Below, one piece after another: positions 39,637-46,084 of a stretch of 64,000 nt of DNA. Under the pieces are notes generated by a model. It was given only the letters and a program-made list of their open reading frames with translations. It was not told the origin of the DNA and did not search any database. Origin of the DNA: Modicisalibacter luteus DSM 23508 (GTDB lineage Bacteria > Pseudomonadota > Gammaproteobacteria > Pseudomonadales > Halomonadaceae); contig NZ_KB899991.1 of the NCBI RefSeq assembly GCF_000378505.1, positions 120,824 through 184,823 on the forward strand, read 5' to 3'. The translations under genes were made by a program, and so were the position numbers. Position 1 is the first letter of the stretch. Each line of letters opens with the position of its first letter.

Positions 39637-39647
39637 ACCTGTCTAAA

Positions 39648-39671
39648 GCGGGCGCGACTCGTCGCGCCCGC
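39648..39671 (+). terminator. Hairpin after RND operon
   Basis: A 10-bp GC-rich stem GCGGGCGCGA/TCGCGCCCGC with loop CTCG. No T-run follows, so termination may be rho-assisted. It separates the efflux pair from the next operon. Confidence 0.6.
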
Positions 39672-39767
39672 ACATGGACCGTTGACCATCGATTCTTTAC
39701 TATCGCGTCCTTGCGGGCATGTATGGCCCGGATCTCAACCGCATTAATGGCTGTTACTAAGGATTAC

Positions 39768-40625
39768 ATGATCATGCCGATTCGACGTGAGCTGCTGGCT
39801 GTCTCTGCTGGCTTGTTGCTCCTGGGTGGCTGTGCCCTGCAACCCCAGTCCGACGAAGACGACCGGCTCGGTGAGTTATTGACCACGTCACGTTTCGATA
39901 ATCGGATCGGGGAACTCGAAGCGACGCTCGCAACCTCTTGCCAGCTGCAGGAGACTGCTCGCCAAGGCCAGCAGGACCGGCTCGATCGTGTCGGCGCCGA
40001 TGTTCGGGAGATAGGTAGCCTGGTGAGAGCCCTGCGAGCTGATGTCGAGACGCTTCATGATGAGCCGAACATCGACATGCCCGAGTGTCCCAGCGGAGAC
40101 ATCGATGCGCTGGAGAACAAGACTTTGTTGGGCCGTACAGAGTGGGTCGGTTTTCCTAATATCGGCACCTACCTCAAGGCCCGTGTCGACTCCGGGGCCA
40201 ACACGGCATCATTATCGACCCGCGAGATTACCGAGTTCGAGCGTGAAGGCGAAGACTGGGTACGCTTTAAGCTGGCCTTGGATGAAGACGCTGTTGCCAT
40301 TAATGCCGTTAGGGATAAATGGATCGAGGCCGAGGTCGTCCGTCGGGTGCGAATCATCCAGGCCTCTGGCGAGGAAAGTCGTCCGGTGGTCAGCTTGCTG
40401 ATGGAACTGGGGCCGATCAAACAGAATGTCGAGTTTACGCTCAATAACCGTACCCACCTGGACTACCCCGTCCTGCTCGGACGGCGATTCATGATGGATA
40501 TTGCCCTGATCGACGTCGCCCAGGCCTATCTTCACGAGCGTCCTGAATATCCGGGCGGGGAGCCTGCCGAGATGGCCGCCGAAGATGAAGCAGGCGACCG
40601 CGTCGATAACGACGAAGACGAGTAA
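39768..40625 (+). CDS. Retropepsin-like aspartic protease lipoprotein
   Basis: This 285-residue protein starts with a lipoprotein signal (lipobox LGGC, Cys22). A charged helical stretch follows. From about residue 120 it has a retropepsin-like domain with catalytic motif VDSGANTASLST (Asp141), a flap region, and the hydrophobic LLGRRFMMDIALIDV end strand. A 20-residue acidic tail closes it. Relatives are described as RimK-associated ATP-dependent zinc protease/retropepsin-like proteins. AAGGA is well placed for ATG 39768 (ATG 39774 is also possible). It heads a three-gene operon with a 7TM-transglutaminase protein and an ATP-grasp ligase. Confidence 0.8.
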   Translation: MIMPIRRELLAVSAGLLLLGGCALQPQSDEDDRLGELLTTSRFDNRIGELEATLATSCQLQETARQGQQDRLDRVGADVREIGSLVRALRADVETLHDEPNIDMPECPSGDIDALENKTLLGRTEWVGFPNIGTYLKARVDSGANTASLSTREITEFEREGEDWVRFKLALDEDAVAINAVRDKWIEAEVVRRVRIIQASGEESRPVVSLLMELGPIKQNVEFTLNNRTHLDYPVLLGRRFMMDIALIDVAQAYLHERPEYPGGEPAEMAAEDEAGDRVDNDEDE

Positions 40626-40639
40626 GGACTTTTCGATCC

Positions 40640-42148
40640 ATGTCACGTGTACCCTTCTATCTGCTGGTCGGCGTCCTGATGCTGACCGGCATCGTCATGA
40701 CTGTGTATCGCCACGTCGAGTTCGATGTGCCTTGGACGCCGGGTGAGCAACGAGAAGTCTGGGAAGTCGAAGCCCAGGTGAATTTCTTTGCCAATGGTGG
40801 GCCGGTCAAGGTGAACCTCGCCCTACCCTCCCATCAGGAAAATTTCCGTGTCCTGACCGAGAATACGGCCTCTTCCGGTTATGGTCTGTCCTTCCTCGAT
40901 GATGATAGTGGTCGTCGCGCCCAGTGGGCTATCCGTGAGGCTTCCGGCGGTCAGCAACTCTATTATTCTGTGCAGTTATTGGTTGCTCCCGATGCCGAGG
41001 CGCCGGCTGTCCGGCCTCCGCAGATTCCTCAGGACATAACTTGGGAACGACCCTATGACACCGCGGCCCAAGGCATCATTGCCCGTGCGCATCAGCAGTC
41101 TGCAGATGCCTTCACCTTCGCCCGTGAGTTGATCCAGGATTTCAGCGGTGATCGTCAGGATGAAAACGCACGTTTATTGCTGACCCGCTTCGACCGCTCT
41201 CCCCTAATCGTCCGTCTCCTGAACCAAGCTGGCATTGCCGCACGCAAGGTAGATGGATTGATGCTCGAGGATGGGCGTCGCCGCCAGGCACTCTCCTCCT
41301 GGCTGCAGGTCTTCGATGAAGACGGCGACTGGGTAATTCTCAATCCGGCCACCGGCGAGCAGGGCCGGCCCGACAACCTTCTGCTCTGGGAGGCCAGTGG
41401 ACAGCCGGTACTCGAGGTGCAGGGCGGAAGCAACTCGGGGGTGAGCTTCTCGATGCTCAAGCACAACGAGCCGGCAGCCGTGGCTGTGCGCAACCAGCTG
41501 ATGAACAATACACTGCTCAACTTCTCGATTCACAGTCTGCCGTTGGAAGAGCAGTCGCTGTTCAAGACCATTTTGCTGATTCCCATCGGCGCACTGGTTG
41601 TCGTGCTTCTGCGCGTCCTGGTTGGCATCAAGACGTCGGGAACATTCATGCCGGTGCTGATAGCGCTGGCCTTCATCCAGACCTCGCTATTTACCGGTCT
41701 GGTTGGCTTCCTGCTGGTGGTAGCCGTAGGGCTGGTGATACGTAGCTATCTATCGCATCTCAACTTGCTGCTGGTGGCACGGGTATCGGCGGTGATCATC
41801 ACAGTCATAGCGATCATTTCGCTATTCTCGGTGTTGGCCTACCGGATGGGGCTCAATGCCGGCCTGACCATCACCTTCTTCCCGATGATCATTCTTAGCT
41901 GGACCATCGAGCGCATGTCGATCCTGTGGGAAGAGGAAGGCCCCAAGCAGGTCTTGATCCAAGGGGGGGGTAGCCTGGTGACTGCAGTACTGGCTTACCT
42001 GGCAATGAACAACCCTTGGATTCGCCATGTCACGTTCAATTTTCTGGGCATCCAACTGATCCTGATGGCCTTCATTCTGCTGCTGGGCAACTACACGGGT
42101 TACCGCTTGCTCGAGCTGCGTCGTTTCAAGCCGATTACGGAGGATTGA
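40640..42148 (+). CDS. Transglutaminase-fold protein fused to seven TM helices
   Basis: The 502-residue protein has an N-terminal membrane anchor (residues 4-20). A periplasmic transglutaminase-like domain follows (about 120-275, with DAFTFARELIQDFSGDR and RKVDGLMLEDGRRRQALSSWLQVFDEDGDWVILNPATG in parts). The usual active-site Cys is not evident, consistent with the inactive transglutaminase-TM family. The C-terminal third is a 7TM region (about 305-495). It lies 14 bp after the retropepsin gene and 4 bp before an ATP-grasp ligase. The membrane part may present a substrate to both; the reaction is unknown. Confidence 0.82.
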   Translation: MSRVPFYLLVGVLMLTGIVMTVYRHVEFDVPWTPGEQREVWEVEAQVNFFANGGPVKVNLALPSHQENFRVLTENTASSGYGLSFLDDDSGRRAQWAIREASGGQQLYYSVQLLVAPDAEAPAVRPPQIPQDITWERPYDTAAQGIIARAHQQSADAFTFARELIQDFSGDRQDENARLLLTRFDRSPLIVRLLNQAGIAARKVDGLMLEDGRRRQALSSWLQVFDEDGDWVILNPATGEQGRPDNLLLWEASGQPVLEVQGGSNSGVSFSMLKHNEPAAVAVRNQLMNNTLLNFSIHSLPLEEQSLFKTILLIPIGALVVVLLRVLVGIKTSGTFMPVLIALAFIQTSLFTGLVGFLLVVAVGLVIRSYLSHLNLLLVARVSAVIITVIAIISLFSVLAYRMGLNAGLTITFFPMIILSWTIERMSILWEEEGPKQVLIQGGGSLVTAVLAYLAMNNPWIRHVTFNFLGIQLILMAFILLLGNYTGYRLLELRRFKPITED

Positions 42149-42152
42149 TGCC

Positions 42153-43115
42153 ATGTGGGCCAGTCCGGGAAAACTTAAAGCCAAGGGCATCATCGGCATG
42201 AACCGGCGAAACATTCGCTATATCAGCCGGTATAACAGTCGTCATCTGTTTCCGCTGGTGGACGATAAGCTGAAAACCAAGCTGCTGGCCAAGCGATTCG
42301 GCATCACGACGCCTGACCTGATCGGTACTGTGACGACCCAGTTCGACGTCAAGCACATCACTGATATGGTCGCCGGACACGGCGGGTTCGCCATCAAGCC
42401 GGCCAAGGGCAGTGGTGGCAAGGGTATTTTGGTCATTGAGCATCAGGATGCCGACGGCTATGTGAAGCCCAGCGGGCACCGGTTGCATCGTGAAGATCTT
42501 GAACGCCACGTGTCGAATATCCTCTCCGGGCTCTATTCACTGGGTGGCGCTACGGATATTGCTCTGGTGGAGACGCTGATCACATTCGATGAGTTTCTGT
42601 CCGAGTATACCTATGAAGGTGTGCCGGATATTCGTGTCATCGTCTTCAAGGGCTATCCGGTGATGGCCATGATGCGCTTATCCACTGCGGCTTCGGACGG
42701 CAAGGCTAACCTCCACCAGGGTGCCGTTGGCGTGGGTCTCGACATTGCTACAGGCACGGCCCTACGAGGCGTACAGTTCGATAGGCCGAGGATGGATCAT
42801 CCCGATACGGGGCACGAACTCGCCAGCCTGCGTATTCCCGACTGGGAAGTCCTGCTCAAGCTGGCAGCCAGTTGCTACGAGATGACGGGGCTGGGCTATC
42901 TGGGCACCGACATGGTGCTCGATAGACGGCACGGCCCGATGCTGCTGGAGCTGAATGCCCGCCCGGGGCTAGCGATTCAAATGACAAATGGCGAAGGACT
43001 GCGTCCACGCCTCGACCTGATTGAGCGACAGCCCGACGGAGCCAACGTGGAGGCTCGTGTTGCCTTTGCCCGCCATCATTTTGCCCGGCGTGGCGAATTG
43101 CAGGTCGCTTCCTGA
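42153..43115 (+). CDS. RimK-like ATP-grasp ligase
   Basis: This 320-residue ATP-grasp protein belongs to the alpha-L-glutamate-ligase-like group. It has the glycine-rich loop FAIKPAKGSGGKGILVIE, an ATP-pocket strand VETLITFDEFL, RVIVFKGYPVMAMMRLST, and the metal-binding end motif MLLELNARPGLAIQM. ATP-grasp ligases of this type join an amino acid to a carboxyl group via an acyl phosphate; RimK adds glutamates to ribosomal protein S6. The partner genes suggest the target is envelope-linked, but nothing here identifies it. The start follows the upstream stop by 4 bases; a hairpin at 43121-43145 ends the operon. Confidence 0.85.
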   Translation: MWASPGKLKAKGIIGMNRRNIRYISRYNSRHLFPLVDDKLKTKLLAKRFGITTPDLIGTVTTQFDVKHITDMVAGHGGFAIKPAKGSGGKGILVIEHQDADGYVKPSGHRLHREDLERHVSNILSGLYSLGGATDIALVETLITFDEFLSEYTYEGVPDIRVIVFKGYPVMAMMRLSTAASDGKANLHQGAVGVGLDIATGTALRGVQFDRPRMDHPDTGHELASLRIPDWEVLLKLAASCYEMTGLGYLGTDMVLDRRHGPMLLELNARPGLAIQMTNGEGLRPRLDLIERQPDGANVEARVAFARHHFARRGELQVAS

Positions 43116-43120
43116 GCACT

Positions 43121-43145
43121 CGCCTGGCCGTTGGACGGTCAGGCG
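43121..43145 (+). terminator. Hairpin after ATP-grasp gene
   Basis: CGCCTGGCCG-TTGGA-CGGTCAGGCG forms a 10-bp stem with one G-T pair. The following sequence GCGTAAAATGCCCTTTT is only mildly T-rich. Confidence 0.6.
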
Positions 43146-43180
43146 CGTAAAATGCCCTTTTCGCCAAGCGACCGAATCGA

Positions 43181-44868: not shown

Positions 44869-44874
44869 ATTATA
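44869..44874 (-). promoter_or_regulatory. Candidate -10 of sufE
   Basis: TATAAT on the minus strand, 73 bp before the sufE start. The -35 is weak (CGGACG at 18 bp). The element overlaps the stop codon region of the recombinase pseudogene. Confidence 0.4.
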
Positions 44875-46084
44875 ACGACTCAGCCCCGGTATCGTCCGCC
44901 CTTACGGGGATATTGAGGCGATGGGCTGCAACCTGGCGTTGCCATTCTTCGGCTTCGGCATGCAGATAGCGGGCTGTGGTATCCAGGCGTGCGTGTCGCG
45001 CGGTCCTGGCCAGGTAGCGCAGTTCGACACCGGCCTGGGCCTGATGGGTGATCGCTGTATGCCGGAGCCAGTGAGGAGATGCCTTGGCCAATTGGCGGGT
45101 CATCGCGGCTATGCCGACCTGCCCTTCCCCTGCGCCTTTCTGGGCCAGATCGTTTGCAGCCTGACAAAAGGCCTCTTTCATCAGGCGGTAGAGCTGATTA
45201 TCCGTAACTTCGGTTTTGCCATCCAAACGGCACAATAGTGGATGGTCATCGTCGCTGTCCGGCAGAGCCTCGAGCCCCCTTGCGCCTCGCCAGTCAGCAA
45301 GCAGAACCAGCATGTCGGGAGGCACGGGGATGCTTGCTAGCTTGCTGCCTTTCCCTACGACACTCCACCACCAGCGCCCCTCCCGATACTGGAAGTCACC
45401 CATGCGTGCCTGAGCCATCTCGGCAATACGTGGCGCAAGCAAGTAACCAAAACCAAACACGAACCGACGCCGATGCCAGGCCAGCTGCTGGCGACTGGTG
45501 GCTTCCTCGGGATATGGCTGATTGAGCTATTGCCATAGCCAGTCCCAGATTGGCCGCTCTAGATAGCGCTCGATATGTGTCTGGCGATTGTCCATGCGCC
45601 GCCGCTTATCTCGCATGAGCCGGAAAGGGTTGTGATTCACCCACCCCGCCTCGACCAGCCAGGCAAAAAGCCCCTGGAGGATAACCAAGCTCTGCCGCCG
45701 GCTGGCGGCAGAGAGCGGGCCTCGGAAAGGTCGCCATTGTGGGTGTGAACGAGGCCTGGGTGGGCCAATCCAGCGCTCTACAGGGTGAGGGGCGGCAAGA
45801 AATTTCTCGTAGGCTTCCAACCAGCGCCGGTCAACATCCCTCAGACCGAGCCTTTTATCGACAAGCCACAGCATGAGCCTTTCAGCTTCCTTGCGGTAGG
45901 CGCGTACCGTCTGCGGGCTGGCTGCGTATTCGGCAAGCCAGTGGCCAACGGCCTCGAAGTCATCTTGTGCCGGTATTCGCGCCGTGGCCGGTTGGGACTG
46001 GCCATAGGCAAGCACTCCTGTCTCTCGTTCGCCACGGTATGACTCGAGCGTCGACAGCAACTCGCCGTGCCATTCATCGGACAT
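44870..46084 (-). pseudogene. Tyrosine recombinase split by one amber codon
   Basis: One continuous frame of 404 codons is interrupted only by TAG at codon 186 (45529-45527). After the stop it continues in frame without a shift into LNQPYPEEATSRQQL and the catalytic domain. Before it lies a core-binding domain (VGHWLAEYAASPQTVRAYRKEAERL). The catalytic set is complete: Arg219 (LLAPRIAEM), His338/Arg341 (HWLRH), His364 and nucleophile Tyr373 (RYLH). A single CAG-to-TAG change would explain it; suppression or a real two-part protein is possible. It diverges from the KfrA-like gene, and an AGGGGCGAGG lies before the start. Confidence 0.85.

Follow-up and report, generated by a model that had tools for sequence, protein, structure and literature searches.

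A halomonad relative of the rloABC system with a lipoprotein retropepsin, a catalytically dead transglutaminase fold and an ATP-grasp ligase

We analysed three consecutive genes in a 64,000-nt stretch of Modicisalibacter luteus DSM 23508 (contig NZ_KB899991.1, positions 120,824 to 184,823; genome size 4.5 Mb), which we call the window. All three open reading frames (ORFs) lie on the forward strand and are separated by only 14 and 4 bases (Table 1). An earlier note, made from the sequence letters, had described a tightly spaced trio of a retropepsin lipoprotein with Asp141, a transglutaminase fold on seven transmembrane (TM) helices and a RimK-like ligase, and the ORFs, the gaps and the profile matches (PF05618, PF14400/PF14402 and TIGR02291) bear this out. 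The order PF05618, PF14400/PF14402, ATP-grasp on a single strand is that of rloABC from Pseudomonas aeruginosa (RloA/A2/A3, RloB, RloC; PMC12239564). That is, the trio is by its sequence a halomonad form or relative of rloABC. The note had treated such trios as a prediction from comparative genomics; related trios do exist, and the system has since been studied genetically in P. aeruginosa (PMC12239564).

Table 1. Features of the trio region (window coordinates; lengths in amino acids, aa).
Feature	Position	Strand	Basis
RloA-like retropepsin lipoprotein, 285 aa: lipobox Cys22, probably helical spacer (about 23-115), protease domain with Asp141 (DSGA)	39768..40625	+	PF05618, sequence
RloB, 502 aa: N-terminal TM helix, periplasmic transglutaminase fold, predicted catalytically dead (about 37-278), C-terminal TM domain (about 302-486)	40640..42148	+	PF14400 + PF14402, AlphaFold model
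RloC, RimK-like ATP-grasp ligase, 320 aa, ligase motifs kept	42153..43115	+	TIGR02291, PF14397
Hairpin in the gap between rloA and the resistance-nodulation-division (RND) pump gene ahead of it; may terminate the upstream genes	39648..39671	+	sequence; fold of 39640-39680, -26.1 kcal/mol
Hairpin right after rloC, possible transcript end	43118..43148	+	sequence; fold of 43112-43150, -21.8 kcal/mol

The longest reading of the first ORF starts from TTG 39633, and in-frame ATGs also occur upstream of the start used here (e.g., 39747). The ATG at 39768 has AAGGA four bases ahead and yields the N-terminus MIMPIRRELLAVSAGLLLLGGC with a lipobox at Cys22; counted from this ATG, the aspartate of the DSG motif is residue 141. 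Both marks of an exported retropepsin, i.e., the lipobox Cys22 as export signal and a D[ST]G motif followed by Ala (DSGA at 141), are thus read from the sequence alone. The protein matches PF05618 with 121.1 bits, while its best NCBIfam model (RloA3) scores 108.8 bits against a cut-off of 210. To relate it to the residues numbered in PMC12239564, we used as alignment reference an RloA from the window's order (L146), which bears every one of them. Given this alignment, the catalytic D48 corresponds to D141, and the four pseudosymmetric positions that hold poly-Glu in P. aeruginosa are kept (K46 as R139, R92 as R192, R114 as R205 and R137 as R228).

The window's RloA differs from the published one in its architecture: it is a lipoprotein with a long spacer, a DSG motif and no cysteine in the protease domain, whereas the published RloA has a signal peptide, DTG and a disulfide, and periplasmic RloA orthologues carry two cysteines in the protease domain (PMC12239564). 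We assessed these traits in 80 named loci, i.e., the best 80 of 572 confirmed loci, chosen by similarity; all lipobox and cysteine counts are pattern-based on uncurated ORF starts. None of the 78 RloA proteins scored has a protease-domain cysteine, 76 show a lipobox-like pattern, and the lipid cysteine lies 101-143 residues ahead of the catalytic Asp where the distance could be measured. Asp directly after the lipid cysteine is the textbook signal for retention in the inner membrane. It occurs in 0/76 lipobox-type RloA proteins, so outer-membrane sorting of the RloA anchor is likely. If helical, a spacer of such length could span much of the periplasm.

RloB matches PF14400 with 192 bits and PF14402 with 367.5 bits; its NCBIfam model gives 368.3 bits (cut-off 900). 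Since RloA and RloB thus both stay far below the NCBIfam cut-offs of the P. aeruginosa-type families, we regard the trio as a relative of rloABC and its proteins not as equivalogs of those of P. aeruginosa. The AlphaFold model of RloB (predicted local distance difference test, pLDDT, 79.4) shows a single N-terminal helix and a C-terminal domain that we read as six TM passes. Its periplasmic part aligns with 3isr, a putative cysteine protease (Z 13.2, root-mean-square deviation 3.8, 213 residues), and with the periplasmic domain of TgpA (Z 6.1). In the window's RloB, the column of the transglutaminase Cys is a gap, that of His is Ser and that of Asp is Asn, and both Cys and His are absent from 29/29 non-redundant RloB rows (window included). 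Judged by these columns, the transglutaminase fold is catalytically dead, as it is in P. aeruginosa. The TM domain has a mean column identity of 81% vs. 66% for the whole protein (two alignments of 44 rows each, i.e., the window and 43 of the 80 loci), and a G-x-F-x-P motif is present in 49/49 RloB rows shown. One locus, L068 from Vreelandella azerica, was left out of these alignments for the stops in its reading: the rloB match taken by coordinates contains five stop codons, possibly a sign of a broken or mis-assembled copy.

RloC scores 447.4 bits with TIGR02291 (cut-off 314.2) and 311.1 bits with PF14397. Aligned by eye with the RimK of the same genome, it keeps the ATP-grasp ligase motifs DIR, NLH, D and E-x-N. 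The rim system resembles the trio in combining a retropepsin with an ATP-grasp ligase that has the same motifs; unlike the trio, RimB-RimK is cytosolic and has no RloB. The genome of M. luteus contains two further PF05618 genes, a separate rimBK-like pair (L004) and a secreted-type retropepsin in a prophage (L198). Given this separate pair and the further prophage retropepsin, the trio is to be assigned to rlo and not to rim.

Among the 80 named loci, the A-B-C order on one strand is found in 80/80. We also searched an even draw of 274 gammaproteobacterial genomes for PF14402, TIGR02291 and PF05618. PF14402 is present in 57 of them, at 58 places, one of which (G077) is below the cut-off and lies in what appears to be another transporter. 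A TIGR02291 match follows just downstream at 51 of the 58 places; PF05618 lies just upstream at 40 or more, and at least 38 have both neighbours. Seen from the ligase, all 46 genomes with an RloC above the cut-off also have RloB, which adjoins RloC in 45 and is on another contig in one. These 46 genomes all have a PF05618 protein as well, compared with 129/274 overall; kinship is uncorrected here and the genomes are related, so the probability of this association is not to be taken literally. A more sensitive look identified an RloA-type ORF in 29 of the 30 loci L005-L034. The earlier note had let its reading depend on two points, namely that the three genes are co-conserved and that the ligase serves no unrelated cytosolic substrate. 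Since the genes are co-conserved, the reading passes the first, and nothing pointing to such a substrate was seen. It had also suggested a search for a conserved fourth partner. Around the 80 named loci, i.e., in the window's class of neighbourhood, this revealed only lineage-specific families, the commonest of which is present in 32/80 loci; the count used a crude ORF picking by which even the three largest families (the trio itself) cover only 69-72 of the 80. Distant relatives do have such partners (see below).

RloB was not found in the viral contigs searched, and the plasmid collection contains just two RloB records, of which one, from Aeromonas, has the size of a chromosome. A complete rlo trio (L035) is located on a 54-kb plasmid-labelled record of Legionella adelaidensis (NZ_LR134414.1); as rnr, rlmB, pepP and a ZapA gene lie on it too, the record may be a chromosomal piece.

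To place the window, we computed a tree of 72 RloB TM domains. This is a quick tree with Shimodaira-Hasegawa-like approximate likelihood ratio test (SH-aLRT) support only, rooted by choice at L153/L154 and with long branches flagged (L137 above all). The window falls into a set of 26 rows (SH-aLRT 99) that includes Halomonadaceae, Vibrionaceae, Aeromonadaceae, Shewanellaceae, Methylophaga and others. We take this set as a derived clade in which RloA usually has a lipobox, a spacer of more than 100 residues and no protease-domain cysteine; at least one member (L099) has no lipobox in a stricter reading. Outside the set, exactly two protease-domain cysteines are found in 25/32 RloA relatives and a lipobox-like cysteine in 2/32. 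The trio itself is of an already known kind, and its lipoprotein-spacer RloA without disulfide cysteines is a variant. With the RloB proteins of named Halomonadaceae, the window's RloB shares 71-79% identity. A metagenome-assembled genome labelled Azoarcus (L059) has an RloB with 72% identity to that of the window; in the tree it is placed among the halomonads, by transfer or from a mis-binned contig.

The state of the transglutaminase triad was read in the 72 RloB rows rather than at all 58 PF14402 places, with 12/58 of another set, picked mostly for divergence. Ten proteobacterial loci (L148-L152, L160-L163, L167) have an RloB with an intact Cys-His-Asp triad, and Pfam reports Transglut_core in the two tested (60.9 and 62.7 bits). 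They form one clade (SH-aLRT 95) with a single change and one very long branch (L137), and therefore represent one event, not ten. All ten have an ATP-grasp RloC relative after RloB, in one case fused to it: the ORF at L163:3976-6492 (genome G181; L137/L163) joins an active-type transglutaminase, the 7TM domain and the ATP-grasp ligase in 838 aa and is followed by an 809-aa tetratricopeptide repeat (TPR) gene. A large gene comes right after the ligase in 10/10, with TPR found by Pfam in both tested. The next gene encodes a protein of about 395 aa in eight loci, all eight being mutually homologous; of the other two loci, one is at a contig end and one lacks this gene next door. Its start, its sequence pattern and an aromatic last residue (5/8) look like those of an outer-membrane barrel, and no Pfam family was hit in the two tested. 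No retropepsin was found in the fetched stretch of any of the ten loci, and PF05618 is absent genome-wide from two (G071 and G197, 99% complete) of the five intact-triad genomes searched. At two further loci (L153, L154), RloB is short and lacks the transglutaminase domain; it is flanked upstream by another barrel-like protein, weakly similar in one pairing (E 0.0003), and downstream by RloC. In a third group (L138-L140; L164-L166 for the wider stretches), the triad Cys is missing and the stretch contains no RloC. We consider the association of TPR and barrel-like proteins with RloB/RloC relatives to be the new part of this analysis: we found no report of it in the open-licence literature, where no search was aimed at these genes by name, as they have none. 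The amidoligase survey of Iyer et al. 2009, outside that literature, may contain some of it.

What the TM domain of RloB might be related to was assessed by sequence and by structure. By eye, its GTFMP and FP motifs resemble repeats of CapC, a subunit of the poly-gamma-glutamate exporter. Homology to CapC/PgsC gained no support: hhalign gave probabilities of 0.3-1.2% vs. 0.1-0.6% for reversed controls. The CapC rows were the 7/10 loci that passed the motif filter. True CapC relatives reached 72.3 and 74.4% in the same test and only 1.9% in one pairing, so its sensitivity is limited. No CapC relative was found by sequence in the PDB. Homology to Rnf/Nqr (19/30 loci as rows) likewise gained no support by sequence (0.2%), nor did an internal repeat of the TM domain (0.5%). 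On the structural side, the full RloB model aligns with RnfA (Z 8.2 over 128 residues; AcrB rows about 6), and for a TM-only model (pLDDT 73.6) the best-ranked rows include RnfA, NqrD, an Mtr subunit and NqrE (Z 6.2-8.0, with 123-152 residues aligned; 81 chains compared), partly tied with a plant anion channel (Z 6.8). Foldseek with the TM-only model gave no significant match (RnfA with E 3.1). An RnfA/NqrD-like fold is therefore only suggestive: RnfA, NqrD and NqrE resemble RloB in the structural alignment and differ from it in having no sequence similarity that we could find, and we do not claim a shared function. Among the CapC frames, L119, L120 and L121 are about 1080 aa long with two tandem CapC domains instead of a single small CapC, and similar frames exist in further genomes.

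Published work gives the trio a functional frame. Purified RloA cuts reporters with 8 or 10 Glu and not those with 6 or fewer, and a P. aeruginosa mutant without all three RloA proteases does not grow without salt, a defect that is fully rescued by deletion of rloB or rloC (PMC12239564). The cytosolic RimB-RimK pair synthesises free poly-alpha-L-glutamate, with chains of up to 28 units (PMC11957791). We thus favour a model in which RloC makes an acidic peptide chain, RloB moves it out and RloA cuts it, with a probability of about 0.5. Here, the cytosolic, RimK-type RloC would join acidic amino acids, most likely L-Glu in alpha linkage, into a chain that is free or on an acceptor. RloB would carry or extrude the chain across the inner membrane via its TM domain, and its dead transglutaminase domain would bind it on the periplasmic side. 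RloA, lipid-tethered by its long spacer (probably to the outer membrane) and dimeric in crystallised relatives, would cut the emerging chain, and without this cutting the product of RloB and RloC would harm the envelope in low-salt medium. The model is favoured because the TPR- and barrel-associated relatives, the kept poly-Glu arginines of RloA and the kept motifs of RloC all agree with synthesis, export and trimming of such a chain. By analogy, TPR and barrel-like partners are what a chain-secretion machine might need. The co-conservation of the genes and the RloB-RloC fusion also count in its favour. The chemistry of the chain, its export by RloB and the membrane of the lipid anchor are inferences. 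Poly-gamma-glutamate synthase (PgsBCA/CapBCA) would be comparable in that it combines a ligase with a small membrane protein and a hydrolase. Its ligase is presumably Mur-like, unlike RloC. The earlier note had proposed a ligase inside, a membrane relay and a protease outside that make and trim a conjugate; both this topology and the notion of a product made and trimmed at the envelope agree with the rloABC genetics (PMC12239564) and with the conserved residues, while the transglutaminase fold is dead and the relay is an inferred part.

Several observations weigh against this model. Nothing in the sequence backs a transporter role for RloB, given that CapC stays near its reversed controls and Rnf/Nqr at 0.2%, and the RnfA/NqrD matches (Z 6.2-8.2) are within the range that the tool calls a common arrangement. 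Within the window's RloA, K97, R99 and K109, which belong to the less conserved flap and asymmetric poly-Glu contacts, are replaced by I, A and a gap. Two RloA relatives beside rloB (L111, L016) have a degenerate active site (DDE, DPG), so some RloA proteins may have lost protease activity. The system is patchy, i.e., two genomes of the window's own family (G272, G567) lack PF14402. The TPR and barrel partners all come from a single clade distant from the window and therefore bear on it only by analogy. In P. aeruginosa, deletion of rloB or rloC restores the remaining traits just in part and by itself causes mild defects, and the accessible text of PMC12239564 reports the natural RloA substrate as unknown and names no product.

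The cell-shape, beta-lactam and low-salt phenotypes of P. aeruginosa point to the cell wall (PMC12239564). One may thus ask whether RloC attaches Glu or a short peptide to a carrier in the envelope (a membrane protein, a peptidoglycan stem or a precursor linked to a lipid, for example), which RloB presents or flips and from which RloA removes the tag, such that there is no free chain. RimK does modify a protein, namely RpsF (PMC11957791), the PF14397 family matched by RloC is named 'sugar-transfer associated ATP-grasp', and in Shewanella vesiculosa disruption of a gene annotated as an inactive transglutaminase fused to seven TM helices alters vesicle output and size (PMC12096838), in general agreement with a role at the envelope. 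The cleavage data are harder to reconcile with a carrier: RloA does not cut 6 Glu or fewer, and a short tag would therefore stay uncut. The TPR and barrel-like partners of the distant relatives further suggest something that leaves the cell. We rate modification of a carrier as possible, if somewhat unlikely. A pseudomurein paper touching on ATP-grasp and transglutaminase (PMC11915815) was considered and has no bearing on the trio.

A second alternative takes RloB as a sensor or scaffold, whose dead transglutaminase domain senses envelope material and sets the activity of RloC on a cytosolic substrate (an osmolyte peptide or a protein), with RloA tuning RloB by cutting it or its ligand. This would account for the dead fold and for the unsupported transport homology, and it has a parallel in the rim system, where the retropepsin stimulates its ligase (PMC11957791). 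The TM domain, better conserved than RloB as a whole and with its invariant G-x-F-x-P, suits a function of its own more than that of a tether, and the RloB-RloC fusion in one genome also speaks against mere sensing, which we judge improbable. That the genes are mere neighbours from three unrelated pathways, as the occurrence of each domain family elsewhere (including the two further PF05618 genes of this genome) might suggest, is already contradicted by the constant gene order, by the adjacency of RloC and RloB and by the rescue genetics in P. aeruginosa (PMC12239564), and can practically be dismissed.

Returning to the chain model, an acidic peptide chain would be expected outside the inner membrane where RloA is absent. 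In P. aeruginosa, the question of the rlo substrate bears on survival at low salt, on cell shape, on biofilm and on sensitivity to beta-lactams (PMC12239564). Extending the model beyond the window, a machine built around RloB and RloC might be widespread among Gram-negative bacteria and serve to synthesise and export a chain of amino acids (probably poly-alpha-L-glutamate). It would exist in three set-ups or more: (a) rloABC and the window, where the chain is cut by a retropepsin that is periplasmic or tethered to the outer membrane, (b) an active transglutaminase-fold domain together with a TPR protein and an outer-membrane barrel, which may process and secrete the chain, and (c) in some proteobacteria, a short RloB with another barrel-like protein. 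This generalisation is tentative, and we consider it unlikely as it stands. If it were true, a retropepsin would have replaced a cysteine-type enzyme in cis once the transglutaminase domain had died, or the reverse. If the TPR- and barrel-associated relatives form a secretion machine, they would be a kind of envelope polymer system for which we found no report in the open-licence literature.

The trio is flanked upstream by an RND pump operon and on the other side by a Fur/Zur-family gene (profile matches). Hairpins lie on both sides of the trio (Table 1). The terminator scan calls neither of them and the promoter scan of the region found no sigma-70 site; a single transcript for the trio is therefore only probable. 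At 44870-46084 (complement) the window contains a gene of about 404 codons with one in-frame stop codon, which by its look we take to be recombinase-like. A family of about 402 aa that resembles it by eye sits downstream of rlo in 29/80 named loci.

The second, secreted-type retropepsin of the genome (L198:15104-15703, complement, on contig C20) has a signal-peptide-like start, DTGA and two protease-domain cysteines. It lies inside the prophage directly ahead of endolysin and Rz-like spanin genes, and the same stretch also holds terminase, portal, head protease and major head protein genes. By tblastn, its only relatives are weak matches (27-31% identity) in three uncultured phage records of more than 630 kb.

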